A stretch of 64,000 bases of DNA from Clostridia bacterium DTU025 (lineage in GTDB: Bacteria > Bacillota > DTU025), in the NCBI GenBank assembly GCA_001513145.1, contig LFSP01000043.1, positions 1-64,000 on the forward strand. Direction: 5' to 3'. Position 1 is the first letter of the stretch; each line of letters starts with the position of its first letter. Shown here one piece after another: positions 29,220 to 56,897 of this stretch. Position numbers and translations under genes: made by a program. The notes beneath the pieces were generated by a model. That model saw only the letters and a list, made by a program, of their open reading frames with translations. It searched no databases and was not told the DNA's origin.

Positions 29220-30029
29220 GTGTTGGAACAAGTAAGATGCCTCCTTCTGGACCTTGACGGCACCATATACCTGGGAGACCAGCTAATCCCCGGCGCGCTG
29301 CGCCTGAAGGAGGCGGCCGAGCGCATCGGGATGGACGTCTTCTTCCTCACCAACAACTCGTCCCGCTCCAGAGAGCATTACTCCAAGAAGATCACGAAAA
29401 TGGGCTGGCCCGTCCACGTCGACTCCGTCCTCAGCTCCACGCAGGCCACGGCCCTGACGCTGCTTGAGCGGGGCTGGCGCCGCGTGTACCTGGTGGGCAC
29501 CCCCAGCTTCCGCCAGGAGCTGGAGAACTACGGTATCACTGTCGCTGGAGACGCCGAGCCTTCGGTGGACTGCGTCGTGGTGGGCTTCGACACCACCTTG
29601 GAGTACTCAAAGCTGAGGGCCGCTGGACGGCATATCCTCCGTGGCACGCCCATGATCTCGTCGAACCCAGACCGCGTATGCCCCCTCGAAGGCGGCGAGT
29701 TCATCCCTGACTGCGCCGCCATCACCGCGTGCCTGCTTACGGCCTACCCCGGCACCACCACGGAGTACATGGGCAAGCCCGAGCTTCCAATGCTGCGGCT
29801 GGTGGAGTCGCGCACCCGCTGGCGCGGCAGAGCCATCGCCATGGTGGGAGACAGGCTCTACACCGACGTGCGCTTCGGTTCCCGCTGGGGCCTCACCGCC
29901 GTGCTCACGCTGTCGGGGGAGACCGCCGTCGAGGACCTTGGCCCCGACGATAGGCCCGACGTCATCGTGAAGGACGTGGGCGAGCTGGCGGATATGCTGC
30001 TCGAGGCCAATGGGCTGAAGCCATTGTAG
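29220..30029 (+). CDS. HAD-IIA family hydrolase (NagD/p-nitrophenylphosphatase-like)
   Basis: A 269-aa phosphatase of the haloacid dehalogenase superfamily. Motif I is LLLDLDGTIYLGD, motif II LTNNSSRS, motif III the Lys in MGKPELPM and motif IV AMVGDRLYTDV; the type IIA cap lies between. It removes phosphate from sugar phosphates, nucleotides or 2-phosphoglycolate-like compounds. The start is GTG at 29220, 9 bp after AAAGGAG. The last residues and stop codon (KPL-stop) lie within a copy of the dispersed repeat. Confidence 0.92.
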   Translation: MLEQVRCLLLDLDGTIYLGDQLIPGALRLKEAAERIGMDVFFLTNNSSRSREHYSKKITKMGWPVHVDSVLSSTQATALTLLERGWRRVYLVGTPSFRQELENYGITVAGDAEPSVDCVVVGFDTTLEYSKLRAAGRHILRGTPMISSNPDRVCPLEGGEFIPDCAAITACLLTAYPGTTTEYMGKPELPMLRLVESRTRWRGRAIAMVGDRLYTDVRFGSRWGLTAVLTLSGETAVEDLGPDDRPDVIVKDVGELADMLLEANGLKPL

Positions 30030-30061: not shown

Positions 30062-30667
30062 CTAGCGGCTGTAGCCCCACAGCTCCTGGTTGCTGGTGGA
30101 CACCCCTAGGGCGCCTGCGGCCAGCACCGCCTCGAGGTCCTCGGCGGTTTGCACCAGGCCGCCGGCGATGAAGGGCGACATCTTGTCCAGGGGCAGCCGC
30201 GGGGCCACCCGAGGGAGCACCAGCGCCGGCAAGATCTCCACGGCGTCAGGCTTCGATGATGCGGCCACCTCCAGCCCTGTCTTGAGCGACTCGGAATCCA
30301 GCAGGAAGAGGCGGAGTATAGCCACGAGCCCTTCGGACATGGCCGCCCTGATCAGCGAGGTCCTGGTGGTGAGTATGCCCTTCAGGCCTATCTCAGTGGC
30401 CAGCCACTTCACCCCCGGGCCGTCCTTGCCGATCCCCTGGATCAGGTCCAGGTGGCAGAAGGGGTATATCCCCAGGGGCTCGCACCTGGTGCACAGGTCC
30501 CTGAGGTCATATATGGTGCCGGTCAAGAGGAACACGACCTTTGCGCCGCAGCGGGCGGCAACGTCCACGTCCTCCGCACGCCTGAGCGCAGGGATTGCCG
30601 GGTGTTTGACCAGGTGTTCCAGGATCTCCCGCCGCTGCGCGGGGCCGAGGCCGGGCGTCCGTGTCAA
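30062..30667 (-). CDS. glpP: Glycerol-3-phosphate responsive antiterminator GlpP
   Basis: A 201-aa RNA-binding antiterminator of the GlpP family, which binds glycerol-3-phosphate and lets polymerase read through leader terminators of glycerol genes. Family segments are REILEHLVKHPAIPALR, VVFLLTGTIYDL, HLDLIQGIG and FIAGGLVQTAEDLEAVLAAG. The frame is open far upstream, but GGAGGGAG 9 bp before the TTG at 30667 sets the start. No glpF, glpK or glpD gene lies in the window, so its targets are elsewhere. Confidence 0.88.
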   Translation of the reverse strand: MTRTPGLGPAQRREILEHLVKHPAIPALRRAEDVDVAARCGAKVVFLLTGTIYDLRDLCTRCEPLGIYPFCHLDLIQGIGKDGPGVKWLATEIGLKGILTTRTSLIRAAMSEGLVAILRLFLLDSESLKTGLEVAASSKPDAVEILPALVLPRVAPRLPLDKMSPFIAGGLVQTAEDLEAVLAAGALGVSTSNQELWGYSR

Positions 30668-30769
30668 GCGTATGCACTCCCTCCGCAGGCGGCCAGCGCC
30701 TGATGTGAGAAGCTTTATCCTTTGAATGATATACTTGTTGGCGTTGCCAGCGCAACTGGGGGGCTGAAC

Positions 30770-31750
30770 ATGAAGCGCAGGTGGAGGGCCTTGCTCGCGA
30801 TCCTTTGCGGCTGTGCTACTCTGTGGTTGGCGGCCTCTGGCTGGGCCAAAGCCGCGCCAACCGTCACCTACAACAGCTGCAATGGGTTCGAAGAGGAAGG
30901 CATGCCGGTCGCATCCATTGTCATGGGGGAGGAGCTCGGGCGCTGGGGCCCCGGCCGCAGCGGAGGCCTGATCCTGAGCGGCGAGGCGTCGCCGTTTCGA
31001 TGGTTCGGCTACTCGTTGACAGCGGGCAATGCCAGCTACGTGCGGCTCGTGGCGCCGCTGCAGGAGGAGGGCCAGAGGGTGGAGAGGCGGCTCGTCGGGC
31101 ACAGGCTGGAGTACCGCCCGTGTCCGTGGCTGGTCGTGGCGGTGAGCGAGACTGCTGTGGGTTCGGGGGATCTGTCTGCGATAATGTACTGGCCATTCCC
31201 GGGCTTTCCGCTGTACGGTCTTCAGAAGGCGGCATATCAGGCGGACTCGAAGCAGGACTCCCTGATAAACGTGCAGCTGGGCGCGGATTTCCGGGTGAGC
31301 GTGGGACGGGCGGAGCTGTGGGGCGAGTTTCTCATCGACGACGCCCAGGCCACCCTGGAGGAAAAGGCGAAGGTGCCTGACATGATAGCGTACCTGGTGG
31401 GCGCGGGGGTGTCGGGCCTCGGGCCTGAGGGCAAGCTCAGCGTGAGGGGGGAGTACGTGAGGATAGCCAACTTCGTGTACTCGCACAGGAACCCCGATTC
31501 CGCATACATTCTGGACGGAAAGCCGCTGGGCCACAGCCTGGGCCCTGACGCCGACATGTTTGAGCTCGCGGCGGAATACGCCCTCGGGCCGGGCGGGCCC
31601 ACCATCGAGGCGGCCGCCTCCGTACAGCGCCACGGCGAGGGCGAGCTGGCTAAGCCGTGGGCGGAGCACAAGCCGCCGCCTGGAAAGTTCCCGTCCGGCG
31701 AGGTTGAACTGGTGTTCACCGCATCCTTAGGTGTCAGAATGGACATATGA
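30770..31750 (+). CDS. Exported beta-barrel-like protein resembling capsule assembly Wzi proteins
   Basis: A 326-aa exported protein. The signal peptide (about residues 1-29) is encoded by an inverted pair of the dispersed repeat. The mature part has alternating strands and segments reminiscent of Wzi-like barrels: ELWGEFLIDDAQATLEEK, SVRGEYVRIANFVYSH, LDGKPLGHSLGPDADMFEL, and a terminal VELVFTASLGVRMDI. Wzi proteins are outer-membrane barrels, so this would suggest a second membrane. The similarity is by eye and partial. The ATG at 30770 is preceded by GGGGGG. It is convergent with a second small barrel-like gene. Confidence 0.65.
   Translation: MKRRWRALLAILCGCATLWLAASGWAKAAPTVTYNSCNGFEEEGMPVASIVMGEELGRWGPGRSGGLILSGEASPFRWFGYSLTAGNASYVRLVAPLQEEGQRVERRLVGHRLEYRPCPWLVVAVSETAVGSGDLSAIMYWPFPGFPLYGLQKAAYQADSKQDSLINVQLGADFRVSVGRAELWGEFLIDDAQATLEEKAKVPDMIAYLVGAGVSGLGPEGKLSVRGEYVRIANFVYSHRNPDSAYILDGKPLGHSLGPDADMFELAAEYALGPGGPTIEAAASVQRHGEGELAKPWAEHKPPPGKFPSGEVELVFTASLGVRMDI
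30804..30885. repeat. Dispersed palindromic repeat, inverted pair 3, inside a CDS
   Basis: Left unit 30804-30830 (inverted) and right unit 30857-30885, both degenerate, are separated by 26 bp. The whole pair is read as the core and cleavage region of a signal peptide (LCGCATLWLA ... APTVTYNSCNG). Confidence 0.75.
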
Positions 31751-31790
31751 CGGGCGCCGGGCAAGCTGCGGTCGGTCGGCCCCTGGTGGG

Positions 31791-32210
31791 TTAGAACGTG
31801 ATGCGCACCCCCGACCTGACCTTGCCGTAGCTTGCGGGGGCCATAACCCACTCGAACTCGGCGAAGAGCTTGTGGAACTCGCCGCCTGCCAGCACTGACG
31901 GATGCACCTCTTTCGAGTGGATCTCCCACGTGGCGCCGGCCCCGACGTAGGCTCCGGTGAGCACGAACACCCTGTGCGGTATGTACAGCAGCGCCGACGC
32001 CGTGGCTGAGCCGCCGTCTTCTAGGATGTCGAGGTTCAGGGAGAGGTTGAACCAGTCCAGCGGCCTGAACCCCGTGCCGATGTTGAAGCCGTCTCCAAGG
32101 ACAAAAGAAGCTTGAACCCAGGAGTTCGCGTCGCAGGCCGCGGGCGCCGCCAGGGCAGTCAGCACTGCGACGAACACGCACACTGACAGTGCCAGTATCT
32201 TGGTCTTCAT
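31791..32210 (-). CDS. Small exported beta-barrel-like protein
   Basis: A 139-aa exported protein with a clear signal peptide (MKTKILALSVCVFVAVLTAL) and a body of alternating hydrophobic strands (LNLDILEDGGSATASALLYI). It ends in SGVRITF; a C-terminal Phe on an amphipathic strand is the usual signal for outer-membrane barrel assembly. GGGAGGTGA lies about 8 bp before the ATG at 32210. I recognise no named family. It is convergent with the Wzi-like gene, 40 bp apart, and divergent from the VanZ-like gene. Confidence 0.7.
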   Translation of the reverse strand: MKTKILALSVCVFVAVLTALAAPAACDANSWVQASFVLGDGFNIGTGFRPLDWFNLSLNLDILEDGGSATASALLYIPHRVFVLTGAYVGAGATWEIHSKEVHPSVLAGGEFHKLFAEFEWVMAPASYGKVRSGVRITF

Positions 32211-32254: not shown

Positions 32255-32707
32255 TTGAGCCAACGGCGCCGAGCCCTGTTGTGGTGGGCCTTAGTTGCAG
32301 CGTACCTGTTGACAATAGCCATCGCCTGGACCAGGCCTGAGTTCGGCGCCGACTACGCGATCCGCCTTCTCGCGCGTTGGTTCCCGACGCTTGAGCCTGC
32401 CAAAATAAGGCTCGCCGTGGTCGCAGCGCGGAAGGTCGCGCATTTTCTCGGATATGGTGTATTCTCCGTCATCCTGTGCAACGCCTTCCTGTCGATGGCG
32501 CCTGATAGGCCCTCTCGAAGAAACGTGTTCGGCCGCGCTGTCCTCGCAGCTTTGGGGGCCTTGGCGCTGGCCGTCATAGACGAATCGCGTCAGCACGCGT
32601 CGCCTTTCCGCACCGGCGCCACGGCAGATATTTTCCTCGACGTGTTGGGGATAGCCACGGGGCTGGCCTTGCGGATTCTAACTGGCAATGGAAGACGGGA
32701 AACGTGA
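32255..32707 (+). CDS. VanZ family membrane protein
   Basis: A 150-aa protein with about four membrane helices. Family marks are ARKVAHFLGYGVFSVIL and the late VIDESRQHASPFRTGATADIFLDVLGIATG. VanZ-like proteins are linked to cell-envelope functions and teicoplanin tolerance, but the mechanism is unknown. The start is TTG at 32255, 8 bp after GGAGG. prsA follows 63 bp later with its own -10 box. Confidence 0.85.
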   Translation: MSQRRRALLWWALVAAYLLTIAIAWTRPEFGADYAIRLLARWFPTLEPAKIRLAVVAARKVAHFLGYGVFSVILCNAFLSMAPDRPSRRNVFGRAVLAALGALALAVIDESRQHASPFRTGATADIFLDVLGIATGLALRILTGNGRRET

Positions 32708-42686: not shown

Positions 42687-44288
42687 TTGAGGATGAGACG
42701 TCCGGTGCCGCTTGGCACTGTGGAGAGCGCGCCGCCAGGGGGAGGCGTCGTCGCCCGCGTCGAGGAGCTGCGGAGGCTCCTCGCTGAAAGCAGCGACGTG
42801 CTGGTCAGGTATTTCGGTGGAGACGGGGGTGGGGAAGGCCAGGGCGCCCAGCTGGACGCCGCCATCCTATGGATCGATGGGTTGGCGGACCTCTCCCTGA
42901 TGACGCAGGGCGTGGTCGGGCCGCTGAGCGCGGCGGTGGATGACTACGCCAGGGGTCGGAGCGGGCGGGGCGCGGACGAGTGTGGCCACGCGGAGCAGGA
43001 CGAGGGGGCGCCCCTTCAGACCCTTGGGCAGCCTTTCCGCATGGAGGAGCACCGGCTCTCTGCGGCGGCAGTGCGGCGGCTTCGCGACCCTGCCGAGGCC
43101 GCGATGCTCGCCGTGCGCGGCCACACGCTGGTCATCAGCGCAGGCGACCCGGACATCCTGGCCTGCAACACCTCCGCTTACTTCGGCAGGCAGGTGCAGG
43201 AGCCGTCGAACGAGTCCACCATCACCGGCTCCAAGGAGAGCTTCGTGGAGTCGCTGCGGGTGAACACGTCGCTGATACGTCAGCGCGTCGCCAGCCCCAG
43301 GCTGCGGGTGGAGGAGCTCTCGATAGGCCGCATCAGCCGAACCAAGGTTGCCGTGATTCACATCGACGGCATCGCCAACGACGCCGTCGTGAACGAGGTC
43401 AGGCAGAGGTTGTCCATGGTGGACGTGGACGCCGTTCACGAGCTAGGGCACCTCAAAGAGCTCATAGCCGACGCGCCGTATTCCCTGTTCACCACTATGC
43501 TGCGCACGGAGAGGCCTGACCGGGTGGCGGCGGCGCTCCTTGAGGGCAGGGTGGCGCTCCTGGCGGACTCCACCCCCTTCGCCATGGTGGTCCCCCAGAC
43601 GTTCATCATGACCATGACTACTCCCGAGGACTACTACGAACGTTTCTCCATCGGCACGGCGACCAGGGTCATCAGGATCCTGGCCTTCATCGTGTCGCTG
43701 CTGCTTCCTGCGTCCTACGTTGCGGTCATCACCTTCCACCAGGAGCTGTTGCCGACGCCATTGATCCTCAGCATCGCAGCCCAGCGGGAGGGGATCCCCT
43801 TCCCGGCGGCGTTTGAGGCGATACTCATGGAGCTCACCTTCGAAGTGGTGAGGGAGGCCGGGATAAGGCTGCCCAGGCTGGTGGGGCCCACCGTCAGCAT
43901 CGTGGGGGTGCTGGTGCTGGGGGATGCCGCCATCAGATCCGGGCTGGTGTCGCCCATAATGGTGATCGTGGTGGCCGCCACAGGAGTGGCCTCCTTCACG
44001 GCGCCGTCATACAGCACCGCCATGGCAGTGCGGGTGCTGAGGTTCGTCTTCCTCGCGGCCGGTTCGGCGCTGGGGCTGTATGGGGTTACCGTATGCCTTC
44101 TCACGTTGCTGGCGCACCTTACCGCCCTGGAGTCCTTCGGCGTGCCGTACATGTCTCCGGTGGCGCCGCTGGTGCCAGAGGACCTGCGAGACGCCCTCTG
44201 GCGGGTGCCGTGGTGGCTGATGAGGCGACGGCCTTCGGAGGTGCAACCCAAGGACACGCGGAGACATCGGGGAGGCGAAGGCAGTTGA
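42687..44288 (+). CDS. Spore germination protein, GerA (GerAA/GerKA) family
   Basis: A 533-aa subunit of a nutrient germinant receptor in the inner spore membrane. The family segments are PSNESTITGSKESFVESLRVNTSLIR, RTKVAVIHIDGIAN, the ELIADAPYSLFTTMLRTERPD stretch and a C-terminal membrane part with helices including RILAFIVSLLLPASYVAV and ILMELTFEVVREAGIRLP. The N-terminal cytoplasmic region has a Gly/Glu-rich insert. The start is TTG 42687 (or ATG 42693) after GGTGAGGG. Its stop overlaps the next gene by 4 bp. It shows that the host makes endospores. Confidence 0.93.
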   Translation: MRMRRPVPLGTVESAPPGGGVVARVEELRRLLAESSDVLVRYFGGDGGGEGQGAQLDAAILWIDGLADLSLMTQGVVGPLSAAVDDYARGRSGRGADECGHAEQDEGAPLQTLGQPFRMEEHRLSAAAVRRLRDPAEAAMLAVRGHTLVISAGDPDILACNTSAYFGRQVQEPSNESTITGSKESFVESLRVNTSLIRQRVASPRLRVEELSIGRISRTKVAVIHIDGIANDAVVNEVRQRLSMVDVDAVHELGHLKELIADAPYSLFTTMLRTERPDRVAAALLEGRVALLADSTPFAMVVPQTFIMTMTTPEDYYERFSIGTATRVIRILAFIVSLLLPASYVAVITFHQELLPTPLILSIAAQREGIPFPAAFEAILMELTFEVVREAGIRLPRLVGPTVSIVGVLVLGDAAIRSGLVSPIMVIVVAATGVASFTAPSYSTAMAVRVLRFVFLAAGSALGLYGVTVCLLTLLAHLTALESFGVPYMSPVAPLVPEDLRDALWRVPWWLMRRRPSEVQPKDTRRHRGGEGS

Positions 44289-46618
44289 AAAGGGCAGGCG
44301 GCGTGTCAGGCCGCAGCCTTGGGGCTCTGGCGATCCTTGTGCGACTCACCATACTGGTCACCTCGCTGCCGTGGTCAGGCGGGGACTTCCCGCACCAGAG
44401 CGCGTGGATAGCGGCGGCCGCCGGGTCGGTGCTGGCAGTCCCATTCATGTGGCTCATGGTTGCGGCAGTGTCAGGGGACCCGCCGGAGAGCCTCATAGCC
44501 AAGGCACGCAGCCGTATCGGACGCTGGGCAGTGCCGGTGCTGGCGCCGGTGGTGGCTGGGTACTGGCTCATCACCGCAGCGACGTACCTAAGAACCACAG
44601 CCGAGGCGTTCGTCGTGTCGTCCATGCCGTCAACGCCAGTGGCGGTGCTGATGCTGCCCCTAGCCGTGGTGAGCGCCGGGATCGCCCGGCGAGGCATAGG
44701 GTTGGTGTGCGCCCTTGCTGACCTGCTGGGGATCGTGGCCTGCGCTGTCGTGCTGTTGGTGGTGGCCGCCACGGCGGGGCAGTTCCAGCTCTTGAACCTC
44801 AAGCCTCCGCTGCCTGACGGCGTGTCAGTGCTGACGGTTCAAGTGGTGGAGACCGCGCACCTGTGGAGCCCGGCGAGCCTGATCTGGATGGTCTACCCCC
44901 GGATCACCGACGAGAAGAAGCGAAGTCCCCTCAGGGCGCTCTTGGCCGCGGTGGGGGTTGGGGGATTCCTCATCGTGGTGGTGCGCGTCGCCATCGCGGC
45001 CGCCCTCGGGCCCCTCGTGGATCAGCTGCCTTACCTCTTCTATGACCTCGCCCGCGTGGCGACGATAGGAGGTTTCCTTGACCAGGTCGAGGTGCTGGTG
45101 ATGGGCACGTGGCTGTTGGGCACCGGGGCCGTCATGGCCGGGCTGTACTGGGCGGCGGCGGAGGCCATCGGTGAAGCGCTGTCGGTACATGCCAGAGGTA
45201 TCTTCACGTATCCACTGGCCGCAGCCAGCGCCGTGCTGGGGCTTTCCATGTTCGAGGACGCGATGGAGCTGCGCAACTTCATATCGCTGAGGGGTTCAGG
45301 CGCACTGGAGCTGGCCGTCATAGTGGGCATATCTGTATTGATGCTCATTGGAGACTGGCTGAGGCGCCCGAGAGGGCGGCAGACCGCCGCCTGTGTGCTG
45401 GCGCTGTGCTTCATCGCCGCCGGCACGTCAGGCTGCTGGGACAGGCGGGAGATCGAGACCCTCGGCTTCGTGACGGCATGTGCCATCGACACTGCCGACG
45501 CCGGAAGCAGGCCTGCAGATGCCGGCCTAGTGCAGGTGTCGGTGCAGCTGGTAAAGCCCTGGGCGCTGAGCATGGGGGAGAGGGACAGCACGCGTGAGAG
45601 GGCCTTCTCCACCGAGACCGCAACTGGGCTCACGGTGTTCGAGGCCGTCAGGAACCTGAACGAAGCATCGCCGCGCAGGCCCTTCTGGTCGCACAACAGG
45701 TGGCTGCTGTTTGGCGAGGACTTCGCCAGGGCCGGGGTGGAAACGGCCCTGGACTTCTTCGCAAGGGACGGCGAGACCAGGATCCTGACGCAGATGGCGG
45801 TGCTTGACGGTGGGCGCGGATGGGATCTGCTCTGGGCCGAGTTCGAGATGGAGCCGCTGCCGGCCGAGGGAGGACGGGGAATGCTCCTCGGGGCGACGTC
45901 TGCCATAGGAACCACAGTATCCACCACACTGAAAGACTTCCTCATCGCACTGGAGGATCCAGGCGCTGATCCTGTGGCGCCGCGCGTGGTCATCGTGGCG
46001 TACTCCGACAAGCCTTCAGTGTCGGGTGACCTGCTGAGGGATGAGATAGAGACCACAGCCCAGCTCAGCGGCCTAGCCGTGTTCCGCGACGACAGGCTCG
46101 TGGGGTGGCTGGACCGGGCCCAGACCAGGGGCTACAACTGGATCCGCGGGAAGGTGGATTCCACGATCATATCGATCCCGGCGCCTGACGCCGACGACCC
46201 TCACGATTTCAGGCAGTACCTGTCCCTGGAGGTGCTGCGGGCCGGGTCGCGCGTGAGGGTGGAGGCGGATGACGAGTCAGGAAAGGTGCGGGCCACAGTG
46301 GAAGTGACGGTGAAAGCTGCCATAGGCGAAGCCCGCCCCCCGCTGAAGCTGGAACAGGAGGAGGTAGTCTTCTCCAGGATCGAGCAGCTCATGGCCGAAG
46401 AGGTGCGCCGCGAGGCGCTGGATGCGGTGGAGCACGCCCAGAGGCTCGAAGCCGACATTTTCGGCTTCGGAAGGCTGCTGATGGCCTCGGATCCGAAGGC
46501 GTGGAGACGACTCGAGGACAGGTGGCGCCAGGTGTTCCGCGAGATGGAGGTGGACGTGCAGGTGAAGGCCACGATAAGGCGAACGGGACTTGCCAGCGGC
46601 CGGTTCACCGTGCGCTAG
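44285..46618 (+). CDS. GerB-GerC fusion: germination permease joined to Ger(x)C lipoprotein
   Basis: One uninterrupted 777-aa frame covers two normally separate germinant receptor subunits. Residues 1 to about 365 are a GerB-type permease of about ten helices (LGALAILVRLTILVTSLPW; WSPASLIWMVYPRI). Residues about 366-777 are Ger(x)C: a signal-like helix (QTAACVLALCFIAAGTSG), lipobox Cys384 and the family opening CWDRREIETLGFV, then FWSHNRWLLFGEDFA and a C-terminal domain. Sizes add up to two normal proteins. An internal ATG (45341) falls in the last GerB helix and could start a separate GerC, but lacks a good ribosome site. The start is TTG 44285, 11 bp after GGGGAGG, overlapping the GerA gene by 4 bp. 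Confidence 0.88.
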   Translation: MKRAGGVSGRSLGALAILVRLTILVTSLPWSGGDFPHQSAWIAAAAGSVLAVPFMWLMVAAVSGDPPESLIAKARSRIGRWAVPVLAPVVAGYWLITAATYLRTTAEAFVVSSMPSTPVAVLMLPLAVVSAGIARRGIGLVCALADLLGIVACAVVLLVVAATAGQFQLLNLKPPLPDGVSVLTVQVVETAHLWSPASLIWMVYPRITDEKKRSPLRALLAAVGVGGFLIVVVRVAIAAALGPLVDQLPYLFYDLARVATIGGFLDQVEVLVMGTWLLGTGAVMAGLYWAAAEAIGEALSVHARGIFTYPLAAASAVLGLSMFEDAMELRNFISLRGSGALELAVIVGISVLMLIGDWLRRPRGRQTAACVLALCFIAAGTSGCWDRREIETLGFVTACAIDTADAGSRPADAGLVQVSVQLVKPWALSMGERDSTRERAFSTETATGLTVFEAVRNLNEASPRRPFWSHNRWLLFGEDFARAGVETALDFFARDGETRILTQMAVLDGGRGWDLLWAEFEMEPLPAEGGRGMLLGATSAIGTTVSTTLKDFLIALEDPGADPVAPRVVIVAYSDKPSVSGDLLRDEIETTAQLSGLAVFRDDRLVGWLDRAQTRGYNWIRGKVDSTIISIPAPDADDPHDFRQYLSLEVLRAGSRVRVEADDESGKVRATVEVTVKAAIGEARPPLKLEQEEVVFSRIEQLMAEEVRREALDAVEHAQRLEADIFGFGRLLMASDPKAWRRLEDRWRQVFREMEVDVQVKATIRRTGLASGRFTVR

Positions 46619-51997: not shown

Positions 51998-53203
51998 CTA
52001 TTCGTAGCGCAGCGCGGCAACAGGGTCCATGTTCGACGCCCGGGCGGCCGGATACGTGCCGAAGGCCAGTCCGACCAGGGTGGAAAATCCGATTGCCGCC
52101 ACCACTGCCAGCCAGTTGAAGGCCATCGGCCAGCCCAGTGCGGCCGAGGCGATGCCGGCCCCGACGTATCCGAGGGCGAGGCCCGCTGCGCCACCGAGGC
52201 TGCTCAGCACCACGGCCTCCACAAGGAACTGCGAGCGTATGTCCTCGTTGCGGGCGCCAAGCGACTTGCGCACCCCGATCTCCCTGGTGCGCTCCGCCAC
52301 CGACGTGAGCAGCGTGTTCATGATGCCCAGTCCGCTTACGAGGAGGCTGATGCCGGCTATGACCGTGAGCATCGCCGTGACTATCGATGTGATCTGCCTG
52401 GTGGCTTTGAGCAGCGCCTGCTGCGACGAGACCTCGAATGCCCGGTCGTCGCCGGCGACTGTGGAGAGATACCTCTTGAGCTGCGCCACGGCGGCATCGG
52501 CGTCATCCGGGGACGAGGTCTGGCAGAAGAACATGCTTACGTTCCTGGAAGGCAACATCTTGTAGACCATTGTAGTGACTGGTATGAACGCCTGTCTATC
52601 CATATCAGAAAGAAACACGGAGCCTTTGGGCTCCACCACTCCCACAACTGTGAAAGGACGGCTGCGCTCGCCCACGGTGACTGAGACCTGCCGACCGATG
52701 GGGTCGAGATCCGCGAACAGGTCCCTGGCTACGGCGCTTCCCAGCACGATGACATGGGACGACGAATCGAGGTCCGAATGGACGATCCCTCTTCCCAAGG
52801 CGATCTTCGTAGTCATGATCCTGGCATACTCAGGCTCAATGCCAGTGAGCGACGCTGTGGTGGGTTCTCCGCGATATGTGAGTGTCGCATTGGACTGCGC
52901 CACCGCTGACACCGCTGACAGGGCAGGAGCGGCTTCGAGCATTCGGGCGCTAAGCTCCAAAGTCATGAACTTCATGACCTTTCGCGGATCCTGGCTGGCG
53001 TTGAGGTTCGGAACCACCGCGATCATGTTCGATCCCAGGTCTGAGATGTTCCGGGCTATCTCTGCTTGGGCGCTCATCCCCACGGAGATCACGGTGATGA
53101 CGGCGCCGACGCCCACCATGACGCCCAGCACCGAGAGGAACGTCCGGAGCTTGTTGGCCTTCAGGTTTCGAAGCGCCAGGAGCACGGTCTCAACGAGGGT
53201 CAT
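51998..53203 (-). CDS. MacB-like ABC transporter permease
   Basis: A 401-aa FtsX/MacB-type permease: one N-terminal helix ([21 protein letters not shown]), a large extracytoplasmic domain of about 200 residues and three C-terminal helices ([23 protein letters not shown] is the first). It transmits ATP-driven movement across the membrane rather than forming a channel, typically exporting peptides, antibiotics or lipoproteins. GGAGG lies 9 bp before the ATG at 53203. It overlaps the ATPase gene by 14 bp, so the two are made together. Confidence 0.9.
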
Positions 53204-53897
53204 CTGACGCCGCCTCCGTTTGCGGTGCGGGCTCCACACGCTCAACCAGACCGTCCCTGAGGAAGACTGTGCGACCTGCCCGCGCCGCGACGTCCCTGTC
53301 GTGAGTGACGACGATCACCGTGACGCCCTCCTTATTCAAGGAGTCGATGATGTCAAGGATGTCTGCACCTGTCTTGGAGTCGAGGTTGCCTGTGGGCTCG
53401 TCGGCCAGGATCAGGGAAGGGGAGTTCACCAACGCCCTGGCTATGGCGGCCCGCTGCTTCTGGCCGCCTGAGACCTCGCTCGGCCTGTGATGGGCCCTGT
53501 CGGCAAGGCCCATACGGCGCAGGGCCTCTGCGGCCAGGCGGCGCCGCTCGCGGACCCTGATACCGGCGTACATGAGCGGGATCTCCACGTTCGCCTGCAG
53601 GGTTTCGCGGGGCAAGAGGTTGAACTGCTGGAACACGAAACCGACGTGCTTGTTTCTGATGCGGGCGAGGTCTTCATCAGTCATGTCGGCCACGTCATTG
53701 CCGTCAAGCAGGTACCTGCCTGATGTGGGGCGGTCCAGGCATCCGATGATGTGCATGAGCGTGGACTTGCCAGAACCCGACGGCCCCATTATGGCGACGT
53801 ACTCTCCTTTGGCGACCTCCAGGTCGACTCCGGCCAGCGCGCGCACGCTGATGTCGCCCATGTGGTAGTCCTTCACGATGCGCTCCAGCTTGATCAT
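53190..53897 (-). CDS. MacB/LolD-type ABC transporter ATP-binding protein
   Basis: A 235-aa ATPase: Walker [10 protein letters not shown], the Q-loop [14 protein letters not shown], signature [15 protein letters not shown], Walker [13 protein letters not shown] and the switch His in VVTHDRDVA. It pairs with the downstream permease and upstream adaptor as a MacAB-like tripartite unit. An adaptor plus MacB in a Gram-positive usually lacks an outer-membrane channel; if the host is diderm, a TolC-like partner would be elsewhere. Confidence 0.93.
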
Positions 53898-53901
53898 GCG
53901 G

Positions 53902-54876
53902 TCACTCCTCCCGAGGCCGCATCCTGAAGGTGAACACGTCGTCTTCGCCTGTAAGCTGGCGGGCGCGGGCCTGAGCGGCGACCGCGTCTTCGACGATGAC
54001 TGCTCCTTCTTTCAACCCCGACAGCACCTGGGTGAACGTGCCGTCTGACACGCCGACTTCCAGTCTGGCGATGCGGATGTCGCCGCCGTCGACGATGATG
54101 GCTGACGGGTAGCCTTGCCAGTCTATCCAGGCGCGGGCGGGGATGCGCAACGAACCCGCGTGCTCGCGCGTGGTGATCCTGGCGTGGGCGGTGAGGCCTG
54201 CCCTCAGGCGGTCATCGGTGGAATCCAGGCTTATCTGGACGGGCAGGGTGACCACGCCGCCGCGGGATGAGGCCACCAGCCCTACCGATGTGACGGTGCC
54301 CGGTAACTCAAGGCCCTGGATGGAGTCGAAGGTGATGACAGCTGGCATGCCCGCCGTCACCCGAGTGAGGTCCACCTCGTCGAGCTCCGCCCTGACGGAG
54401 AAGGAGGAGTCGTCCACGAGGACGGCTATGGGTTGGCCGGCGGTGGCGAACGCACCTGCCTTCACGTCGAGGGAGGCCACGACGCCGTCGAAGTCGGCAG
54501 TCGCCCGTTGCATGCCTGCAGACTGGCTTCCCATCATCCCGTAGGCTGATGAGAGGAAGTCATACAGCGGATCGCCCCGCGACACCCGCGAGCCTTCGTC
54601 TATATGGACGGCCGTTACTCTGCCAGGCGCTTCGGTCTGGTATACCCGCATGTTGCGCGGCATAACTGTGCCCGAGACTTCCACGAACTCCAGGACGACG
54701 CCGCGCCCCACTGTGTGCGTGGGCGCATCCTTCGCCGCAGCCGTAAGCGCAGACAGCTGGGCGTCTATCCTGACAGGCTTGACATATATCGCAAGAAGAA
54801 CGCCCACGCCTAGCAAGGCGAAGATCCAGATCCACCGGCGCCGGTGCGGCGCCTTTGCCGATTTGCCACGCGACAA
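53902..54876 (-). CDS. HlyD/MacA-family efflux adaptor
   Basis: A 324-aa membrane-anchored adaptor with a basic N-terminus ([12 protein letters not shown]), one helix ([16 protein letters not shown]) and a beta-barrel/lipoyl body ([38 protein letters not shown], then [17 protein letters not shown]). The coiled-coil hairpin between the lipoyl halves is very short. The start is TTG 54876, 8 bp after GGAGG. It lies 4 bp upstream of the ATPase and begins the operon of adaptor, ATPase, permease and small protein. Confidence 0.88.
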
Positions 54877-54995
54877 GCCTCGCACCTCCAGAGTCTCTGG
54901 ATCATTATACCCAGTTGCCGACGGCGCCGAAATCGCCCGACGGGTCTAGCTATCTGGCTGACCTCGTGGTATCATAGTGATGAAAAGCACATAAG

Positions 54996-55783: not shown

Positions 55784-56488
55784 TCACCTGGCGAACCAGA
55801 TGCTCCGCCCGACCGCGTAGAGTAACCATAGGTGGACAGGGTAGAACACGTAGAAGAACCACTTTGCAGCGGGGGAAGCAGAACCCCGCTGCTCGTTGTA
55901 CAGCAGGAATAGCGGCAGGGCGAACACCATCATCCACTGGTAGTCCCACAGGAACCAGGCTTGTGGCTGGAAGAACGAGCTGAGGGATGGCAGGAGGGAG
56001 AGGGCCACGTAGGCCAGCGACATCGCCTTCCTGTTCTCCCGCAGGTAGTAGAATGTGAGCGCCATGCCGACGCCGTATACGGACGCTTCAGTGAGCAGCG
56101 CCAGGCCGGCCCACAAGGCAGCCAGCACGTTGCCTTCCATGGGCCGGTTCGTCTCCATGCCCCAGCGTAGCGCCCACAACATGAGAAGGCATGTTCCTAG
56201 CGATAGGAAGATGTTGGGAAAATCCTTGTACCAGGGCAGCAAGTGCGAGAGGGTTCTTGAGCCGGCGGCCATGATCAGTGCGCCGGCGAACAGTCGCGCC
56301 ACCAGGCGGGGGACGCTTCGCGTGTGGATGAAGCCTTCGACCGATGCGAAGAAGAAAATCGGCGCCGAGAGCCTGCCGAGGTATCTGAACCACAGAGGGT
56401 AGCCTGGCAGGTAGTACTGGACGTGGTCGAGAAGCATTAGGCCCGCGGCTATGAGTTTCAACTGGAAGACTGTGAGCCCCGGCGGCAT
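55784..56488 (-). CDS. TraX family membrane protein
   Basis: A 234-aa protein with about eight helices of the TraX family, named for the F-pilin acetylase but widespread in chromosomes. Family marks are LKLIAAGLMLLDHVQYYLPG, RYLGRLSAPIFFFASVEGFIHT and the late KWFFYVFYPVHLWLLYAVG. It may acetylate a surface polymer. The ATG at 56488 follows GGGAGGG by 6 bp. No pilus or conjugation genes lie near it. Confidence 0.87.
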   Translation of the reverse strand: MPPGLTVFQLKLIAAGLMLLDHVQYYLPGYPLWFRYLGRLSAPIFFFASVEGFIHTRSVPRLVARLFAGALIMAAGSRTLSHLLPWYKDFPNIFLSLGTCLLMLWALRWGMETNRPMEGNVLAALWAGLALLTEASVYGVGMALTFYYLRENRKAMSLAYVALSLLPSLSSFFQPQAWFLWDYQWMMVFALPLFLLYNEQRGSASPAAKWFFYVFYPVHLWLLYAVGRSIWFAR

Positions 56489-56897
56489 GGCCATCCCTCC
56501 CGGTCACTAATTCGCCGGCTGGAACGGGGTTGCCTGCCTGCGGGGTATGTCCCGGCGCAGCGATGGAACCGGGCAGTGAAGACGGAGTGGTCGGCGGGAT
56601 GCGGTCGCGGCGACCCACCCACGGGTCGTTTACACAGGAGGTGCTCCGCTTATCCCAGCTACGCGCGGTGTGTGGCCAGAAGGTCCGCACGAAGTGCACC
56701 GACTCACGGTGCCCACCGGTTAGACGTGGCGGGGGCGACCCACCCGTGGGTCGGCGTGGGCAGCCAAGGTGGGGGCTCTCTCGCGTTGGTTTGACGCTCA
56801 TCCGCTGGCGAGTCGTTGTGCTGGCAAGTAGGCCCAGTAGCGAGCCGGTTCGCAGCCAGCTTCGAGAAAGCAATTGGTGTGCGGCGGCGATCTCCCC
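56489..56897. other. Non-coding stretch with two GGGTCG palindromes
   Basis: No convincing gene is found here. Two similar palindromic elements occur 124 bp apart: CGACCCACCCACGGGTCG (56611-56628) and CGACCCACCCGTGGGTCG (56736-56753), each within a GGCGACCCACCC context. They could be protein-binding sites or RNA hairpins. The leftward reading frames through here continue into the antisense of tRNA-Gly and are not genes. Confidence 0.5.

Follow-up and report, generated by a model that had tools for sequence, protein, structure and literature searches.

Two candidate outer-membrane beta-barrel proteins and a fused LptF/G–LptD-like gene in a spore-forming, very probably diderm class of Bacillota

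Does a spore-forming member of the Bacillota place beta-barrel proteins in an outer membrane of its own? The question is raised by two neighbouring genes in a 64,000-nucleotide stretch of DNA (contig LFSP01000043.1, positions 1 to 64,000; here called the window) from Clostridia bacterium DTU025. It bears on a wider problem, as two-membrane spore formers are central to understanding how monoderm bacteria descended from diderm ancestors. The genome that contains the window (G000) was compared with 11 other genomes of its class (G001–G011; 12 class genomes in all) within a sample of 41 related genomes. The evidence comes mostly from draft genomes, and the counts given below take related genomes as separate.

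The locus and its neighbourhood

The features of the window that enter the analysis are as follows.

29220-30029, plus strand: HAD-family phosphatase, a frequent neighbour in relatives (Pfam 1.2e-23)
30062-30682, minus strand: GlpP, glycerol-3-phosphate responsive antiterminator, divergent from the Wzi-like gene (Pfam 2e-52)
30770-31750, plus strand: predicted Wzi-like outer-membrane barrel, 326 aa with signal peptide, ATG at 30770 (PF14052 match, model, beta-signal)
31791-32210, minus strand: exported protein of 139 aa, probably an outer-membrane barrel with 8 strands (model, beta-signal)
32255-32707, plus strand: VanZ-like membrane protein (Pfam VanZ 1e-8) with RKxxH and DxxxD motifs by eye (VanZ-2 type; motif definitions from the available part of PMC12419801)
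32771-33787, plus strand: exported PPIC-type foldase without lipobox (Pfam Rotamase_3 6.8e-25)
42687-44288, plus strand: GerA spore germination gene (Pfam GerA 8.3e-165)
44093-46618, plus strand: germination permease and GerAC in one frame (Pfam Spore_permease 1e-23, Spore_GerAC 1.9e-43)
51998-53245, minus strand: MacB-type permease (Pfam MacB_PCD 4.8e-38)
53190-53897, minus strand: ABC ATPase beside the MacB-type permease (Pfam ABC_tran 1.5e-34)
53902-54885, minus strand: MacA/HlyD-type adaptor (Pfam HlyD_3 2.9e-18)

The Wzi-like gene and the small gene converge, with 40 bases between them, and the products of both carry a signal peptide by eye. The original prediction had described the small protein as exported, ending in SGVRITF and convergent with the Wzi-like gene; its coordinates, strand and ending are as claimed. 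GGGAGGTGA lies seven bases ahead of its ATG. Long antisense frames run opposite both genes, and homology and synteny identify the frames listed above as the real ones. The soluble SurA/PrsA-like foldase said to lie nearby is also there. Its secondary Pfam match, SurA_N_3 (4.1e-5), is below the cut-off, and its best NCBIfam model, PrsA, falls below that model's own cut-off. It has no lipobox, because its first 40 residues contain no cysteine, and it is a probable periplasmic chaperone.

Relatives, whose neighbouring genes were named by eye, repeat the series HAD phosphatase, GlpP, Wzi, small gene, VanZ and PPIC foldase in part or in full. The first five genes stand together in G001 and G005, the run from GlpP to the PPIC foldase is found in G007 and L018, whose contigs are equally long (with the small gene interrupted by unread bases), and GlpP, Wzi and the small gene are together in G003. 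The two barrel candidates can also part company. In G002 the Wzi gene adjoins VanZ and there is no small gene. In G004 the small gene sits between GlpP and the PPIC gene, with neither Wzi nor VanZ at that place and Wzi on another contig, and in G008 it sits between the HAD gene and VanZ, again with no Wzi. The small gene therefore goes with the neighbourhood rather than just with Wzi. Overall, 10 of the 41 genomes gave a match to the Wzi-like protein in the protein search (seven in the class, including the window's own), and the Pfam Wzi model matched in 8 of the 41; the small protein was matched in 7 of the 12 class genomes, one copy being interrupted by unread bases. The available part of PMC12419801 links VanZ-2 proteins mostly to peptidoglycan genes and describes, in the FCB group, one operon type that pairs VanZ with a Wzi-like barrel, to which the window neighbourhood is a loose parallel.

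The genome carries the spore genes GerA, GerAC and SpoIID. The 841-residue frame at 44093-46618 joins a spore germination permease and GerAC, germinant receptor subunits that are usually encoded separately.

Folds and probable roles of the two exported proteins

Outer-membrane barrels typically end in a C-terminal beta-signal of the pattern polar-x-Gly-x-x-hydrophobic-x-hydrophobic. This pattern was sought at the very end of all six-frame open reading frames of at least 100 residues in the window. In its strict form it occurs in 2 of 194, which are exactly the Wzi-like protein (SLGVRMDI) and the small protein (RSGVRITF). All six aligned members of the small-protein family end in Arg-x-x-Phe, and four of them have the full signal by eye; the relative in G008 has lost the glycine. 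Alternation of hydrophobic residues was also tried as a barrel test, giving z values of 2.37 for the small protein (reached by 21 of 1000 shuffles) and 1.5 for the Wzi-like protein (67 of 1000), as well as 0.56 for the PPIC foldase and −0.62 for GlpP. The test was dropped as non-specific because the HlyD control scored highest, with a z of 3.28.

The Wzi-like protein matches Caps_assemb_Wzi (PF14052) with an E-value of 7.2e-14 and 52 bits against a curated cut-off of 30.1. A profile made from the alignment of its family finds a single match in the PDB, E. coli Wzi (2ynk, E 5.9e-7). The structural model (pLDDT 71.9, from 10 sequences) is clearly a barrel. It contains 12 confident strands from residue 47 onward, two short strands ahead of them with pLDDT below 50, and helices only at residues 2-12 (the signal peptide), 148-158 and 160-165. 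E. coli Wzi is also the best solved structure in a Foldseek search with the model (E 4.7e-7) and in VIA, where 2ynk is matched with a Z of 20.8 and an rmsd of 3.6 over 258 residues, followed by the OmpM1 porin at 15.6. The proposal that this protein is an outer-membrane barrel thus holds up well in both family and fold.

Wzi, the outer-membrane lectin of group 1 capsule assembly (PDB 2YNK, PF14052, TC 1.B.73), therefore shares a sequence profile and the closest known fold with the window protein, but the two differ in several respects. According to the available part of PMC3791409, E. coli Wzi, with 18 strands and an N-terminal helical plug, is proposed to bind nascent capsule as it exits Wza. 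The window protein has 12 confident strands, not 18, and no N-terminal helical bundle; the VIA match begins only at residue 128 of 2ynk. The plug region is absent from the Pfam matches of relatives as well, which start at profile positions 76-85 in five of them and 64 in G036, against 92 in the window protein. Compared with its class relatives, the window protein also has about 20-40 fewer residues ahead of the first strand (from the alignment, by eye) and a 39-column alignment gap near the C-terminus, and it is the shortest intact class member seen. The Wza-type model Poly_export (PF02563; one Pfam model, searched in a genome 96.7% complete) finds no match in the window's genome; it matches in 4 of the 12 class genomes, all Wzi-positive, and in G036 a Poly_export/SLBB gene is the second downstream of the Wzi gene. 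Because the window protein has no plug, is shorter at both ends than its class relatives and has no Wza-type match beside it, it is probably not a capsule anchor in the E. coli sense. Capsule anchoring may well have been the ancestral role of Wzi in this group, with the Wza-type exporter apparently lost from the window's genome. Wzi-family proteins 27-32% identical are also found in metagenome genomes of candidate division WOR-3 and Candidatus Eisenbacteria (L023, L024, L025).

Two other readings of the Wzi-like gene have to be weighed against a glycan-binding surface barrel. The protein might be a small porin-like channel, open for want of the N-terminal plug, and not a lectin at all. Many porins score a Z of about 15 against the model, its two short helices besides the signal peptide form no plug, and the genome yielded no Wza-type exporter. 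Wzi nevertheless leads by a clear margin in both sequence and fold, and several polar residues are invariant even in the WOR-3 and Eisenbacteria relatives, which makes a channel a rather unlikely second choice behind the glycan-binding surface barrel. The gene might, alternatively, be a decaying remnant whose barrel is being trimmed now that capsule export is lost. The shortened ends point that way, as do the missing Poly_export match (present in four of the seven Wzi-positive class genomes) and an additional, broken Wzi copy in G002. Yet the frame is intact, the losses are in frame, and signal peptide, beta-signal and invariant residues are all kept, so that we regard decay as improbable.

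The small protein is harder to place. It has no family match above the cut-off in Pfam or NCBIfam, and no match in the PDB by sequence at an E-value of 10. Its model, built from 4 sequences, is of low confidence (pLDDT 57) and has 8 strands. VIA ranks two membrane barrels first, the designed 6x9z and Thermus thermophilus 3DZM (both Z 9.5), with soluble designed barrels close behind (9.0 and 8.8) and PagP (8.1) and OmpA (7.8) at lower ranks. Foldseek gives nothing at 0.001 or better; lipocalins and anticalins come first at 0.1 and worse, which was not accepted as a family match. A soluble, lipocalin-like barrel in the periplasm would fit these Foldseek matches, the weak model and the closeness of the soluble designs. 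Against it stand the membrane barrels at the top of the VIA ranking and the C-terminal Arg-x-x-Phe of all six aligned members, most with the full beta-signal; we consider it a minor possibility. The small protein is probably an outer-membrane barrel, as originally proposed, and one of 8 strands, with the strand count of the model in favour of this claim and the low pLDDT and the scores of soluble barrels weakening it. With barrels of the PagP and OmpA class and with 3DZM it shares the predicted 8 strands, a signal peptide and a C-terminal Phe, but it is shorter, belongs to no matched sequence family and has a weak model.

Outer-membrane genes beyond the window

A second membrane should be visible in the rest of the genome, and the genes looked for there were largely found. 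BamA is encoded on contig C6 (E 1.2e-49), with OmpH beside it (1e-12) and a cluster that comprises LptA, LptC, an LptF/G permease with an LptD-like part and two ABC ATPases, either of which may be LptB. A TolC-type outer-membrane efflux protein (2.1e-19) lies on a separate contig, C24, and its model matches 11 of the 12 class genomes. BamA is present in all 12 class genomes and in 7 of the 29 other sampled genomes of the phylum. All 10 genomes with a Wzi-like protein fall within these 19 BamA-positive ones, and the 22 genomes without BamA yield no Wzi-like match; the co-occurrence has a p of 8e-5, a value that presumes independent genomes although these are related. Judged by gene content, the genome very probably encodes a diderm, in agreement with the second membrane first suggested from the window.

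Other features of the envelope are less telling. The MacA-type adaptor near 54 kb had been offered as a sign of a second membrane and was set aside as too weak, since monoderm Bacillota also have such adaptors (for example YknX of Bacillus subtilis). Near the BamA cluster, L002:1-1065 encodes an exported protein with a single SLH domain, a coiled coil and a signal peptide; the contig end cuts it and takes away any barrel part it may have. It matches OmpM1 (1.6e-14) and Deinococcus SlpA (1.8e-13), and adds little to the case for a diderm because the monoderm S-layer protein Sap matches too (1.2e-12). The protein next to BamA that looks TamB-like by eye (P0002) has no Pfam match and is not counted as TamB. 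That the cell is in fact monoderm, with these genes as relics or contamination, could draw on the Sap match and on the fact that soluble PrsA-like foldases, VanZ, SLH proteins and MacA-type adaptors all occur in monoderm Bacillota as well. The joint presence of BamA, OmpH, Lpt and TolC-type genes, the occurrence of BamA throughout the class and the confinement of Wzi-like matches to BamA-positive genomes leave it scarcely credible.

Two further observations concern these regions. Close to bamA, a 621-residue protein (L002:17522-19387) contains a partial SpoIVB-type (S55) peptidase domain. In the window, a TraX-family protein (55784-56494, Pfam 2.8e-25) is encoded near the MacAB-type genes.

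The explanation we favour, and hold to be quite probable, is that this member of the Bacillota is a spore-forming diderm with a genuine outer membrane, and that the products of both window genes are beta-barrels residing in it. Sec would export both proteins by their signal peptides, and soluble foldases in the periplasm (the PPIC protein encoded next door and the OmpH/Skp protein encoded beside bamA) would escort them. BamA would then insert the barrels by way of their C-terminal beta-signals; machinery and signals are both seen in the sequence, and the act of insertion is what we infer from them. The larger barrel, a short member of the family of the capsule lectin Wzi, would most likely reside at the surface and bind glycans, and an accessory role in the envelope is the best guess for the small one. 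The lipid of this membrane would probably be a glycolipid other than lipopolysaccharide, supplied by a modified Lpt line (LptC, LptA, the LptF/G–LptD fusion and the ABC ATPases of the cluster) together with an LpxB-like glycosyltransferase.

Lipid A and the LptF/G–LptD-like fusion

The lipid A genes had also been named among those to look for elsewhere in the genome, and there the outcome was negative for LpxC. The one Pfam model used for LpxC, the committed enzyme, matches none of the 12 class genomes (drafts, the window's own being 96.7% complete). It matches 7 of the 41 sampled genomes, exactly the seven BamA-positive ones outside the class, and 4 of 14 control genomes. The LpxB model gives weak matches in 8 of the 12 class genomes, seven of them above the cut-off, and none in the window's genome. 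In the outer-membrane cluster of the latter, however, protein P0004 (L002:3592-4842) is 37 and 44% identical to two LpxB-matching frames of the class, compared with 20% to the true LpxB of G036. Searched alone, P0004 matches nothing in the PDB, nothing in Pfam at 0.01 and, in NCBIfam, only another family at chance level; its description as LpxB-like rests on the two class relatives, which lie at the sites of LpxB-model matches, and on the alignment. A divergent LpxB-like glycosyltransferase appears to have been kept without LpxC, and the outer membrane of the class appears to be free of lipid A.

It could be argued that the outer membrane contains ordinary lipopolysaccharide and that LpxC was missed or is too divergent to be matched. 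The assemblies are incomplete, and the LpxB-like protein and the Lpt line are kept. The same search, however, recovered LpxC in seven of the seven other BamA-positive genomes and in none of the 12 of the class, and P0004 is far from true LpxB; ordinary lipopolysaccharide is accordingly a very improbable reading. A lipid A-free outer membrane, the preferred reading, would set the class apart from Negativicutes and Halanaerobiia, which have full lipid A gene sets according to the available part of PMC11448272. The likeness to Negativicutes and Halanaerobiales that had been suggested extends to the outer-membrane assembly genes (BamA, OmpH, Lpt parts and a TolC-type channel are common to both) but not to LpxC, and the LptF/G of the class is fused to an LptD-like region. 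The LPS-free diderms Borrelia, Treponema, Thermus and Thermotoga keep Lpt homologues, with glycolipids as their proposed cargo (PMC10353723, in the part available). An Lpt line apparently kept without lipopolysaccharide is what the class has in common with them; the difference is that here it belongs to an endospore-forming class of Bacillota with a fused permease–translocon gene. The open-access literature searched, in the parts available, yielded no description of an LpxC-free diderm of the Bacillota. A lineage with BamA and an Lpt line in which no LpxC is found separates, within the Bacillota, the keeping of an outer membrane from the keeping of lipopolysaccharide.

The most unusual gene of the cluster is the fusion itself (G000:C6:9558-12842; L002:9555-12842). 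Its 1095 residues comprise, in one frame, an LptF/G permease (residues 12-360), an arginine-rich stretch, a hydrophobic stretch, the tripeptide Ala-Ser-Ala and an LptD-like region. The fusion is matched in 11 of the 12 class genomes, and in 10 of these (the window's own, G001-G004 and G007-G011) a single open frame spans the junction, with the caveats that it is split over two contigs in G007 and broken near the start in G008, where the translation opens with an unread residue. The exceptions are G005, which has the C-terminal part only, and G006, which has none. In the window's genome the LptD-like region matches LptD_N (9.2e-5) and DUF3769 (1.8e-4), both above the cut-off. Among eight fusions, LptF_LptG matches in all, DUF3769 in six and LptD_N in four. 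Pfam also has a model of the LptD barrel, which is not among the matches of these eight. Compared with LptD structures in the PDB, the region past the junction matches 8h1r at 4.6e-6 and 7omm at 0.005. LptD itself is marked by a jellyroll at the N-terminus, a large barrel and a pair of cysteines far apart in the chain.

In eight aligned fusions a possible cleavage site follows the hydrophobic stretch, with Ala in position −1 and a residue that is small or branched in position −3 (by eye); only two cysteines, 521 and 1055, are invariant among them. LpxC-positive relatives encode the halves as two genes, which adjoin each other in G036, G018 and G031 and lie on different contigs in G012 and G027. 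The G036 permease gene closes with a stop codon; 10 bases further on, an ATG opens a separate LptD-like protein that keeps both cysteines and has, by eye, its own signal peptide where the fusion has the internal one. The simplest history suggested by these sequences is that the fusion arose by loss of the stop between the permease gene and the LptD-like gene. The internal signal-peptide-like stretch of the fusion makes cleavage by signal peptidase a prediction. The chain may be cut or may stay whole, and its second half may also be started internally, since a Met lies close to the hydrophobic stretch in several members.

Diderm Firmicutes are reported to have no LptD in two surveys (PMC5007114, PMC8871954), the former noting no clear homologue in Negativicutes and Halanaerobiia; both statements are taken from the parts of these sources available. 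The genes described here provide a candidate LptD for this group, separate in the LpxC-positive relatives and fused in the class of the window. We found no LptF/G–LptD fusion described in the open-access literature searched, in the parts available. A broader picture, which we offer tentatively and put a little short of an even chance, would be that of a class-level, endospore-forming lineage of Bacillota whose outer membrane is free of lipid A and contains a glycolipid made with the divergent LpxB-like enzyme. In this lineage an LptF/G–LptD polyprotein would act in a shortened Lpt line, either with its LptD part freed by signal peptidase or as an uncut chain that spans the envelope, and the window's species would in addition have a short Wzi barrel without Wza.

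The number of LptF/G matches also differs among the genomes. In the class only one per genome is seen, and five LpxC-positive relatives (G036, at G036:C4:72532-73632, and G012, G018, G027 and G031) have a second match apart from the first.
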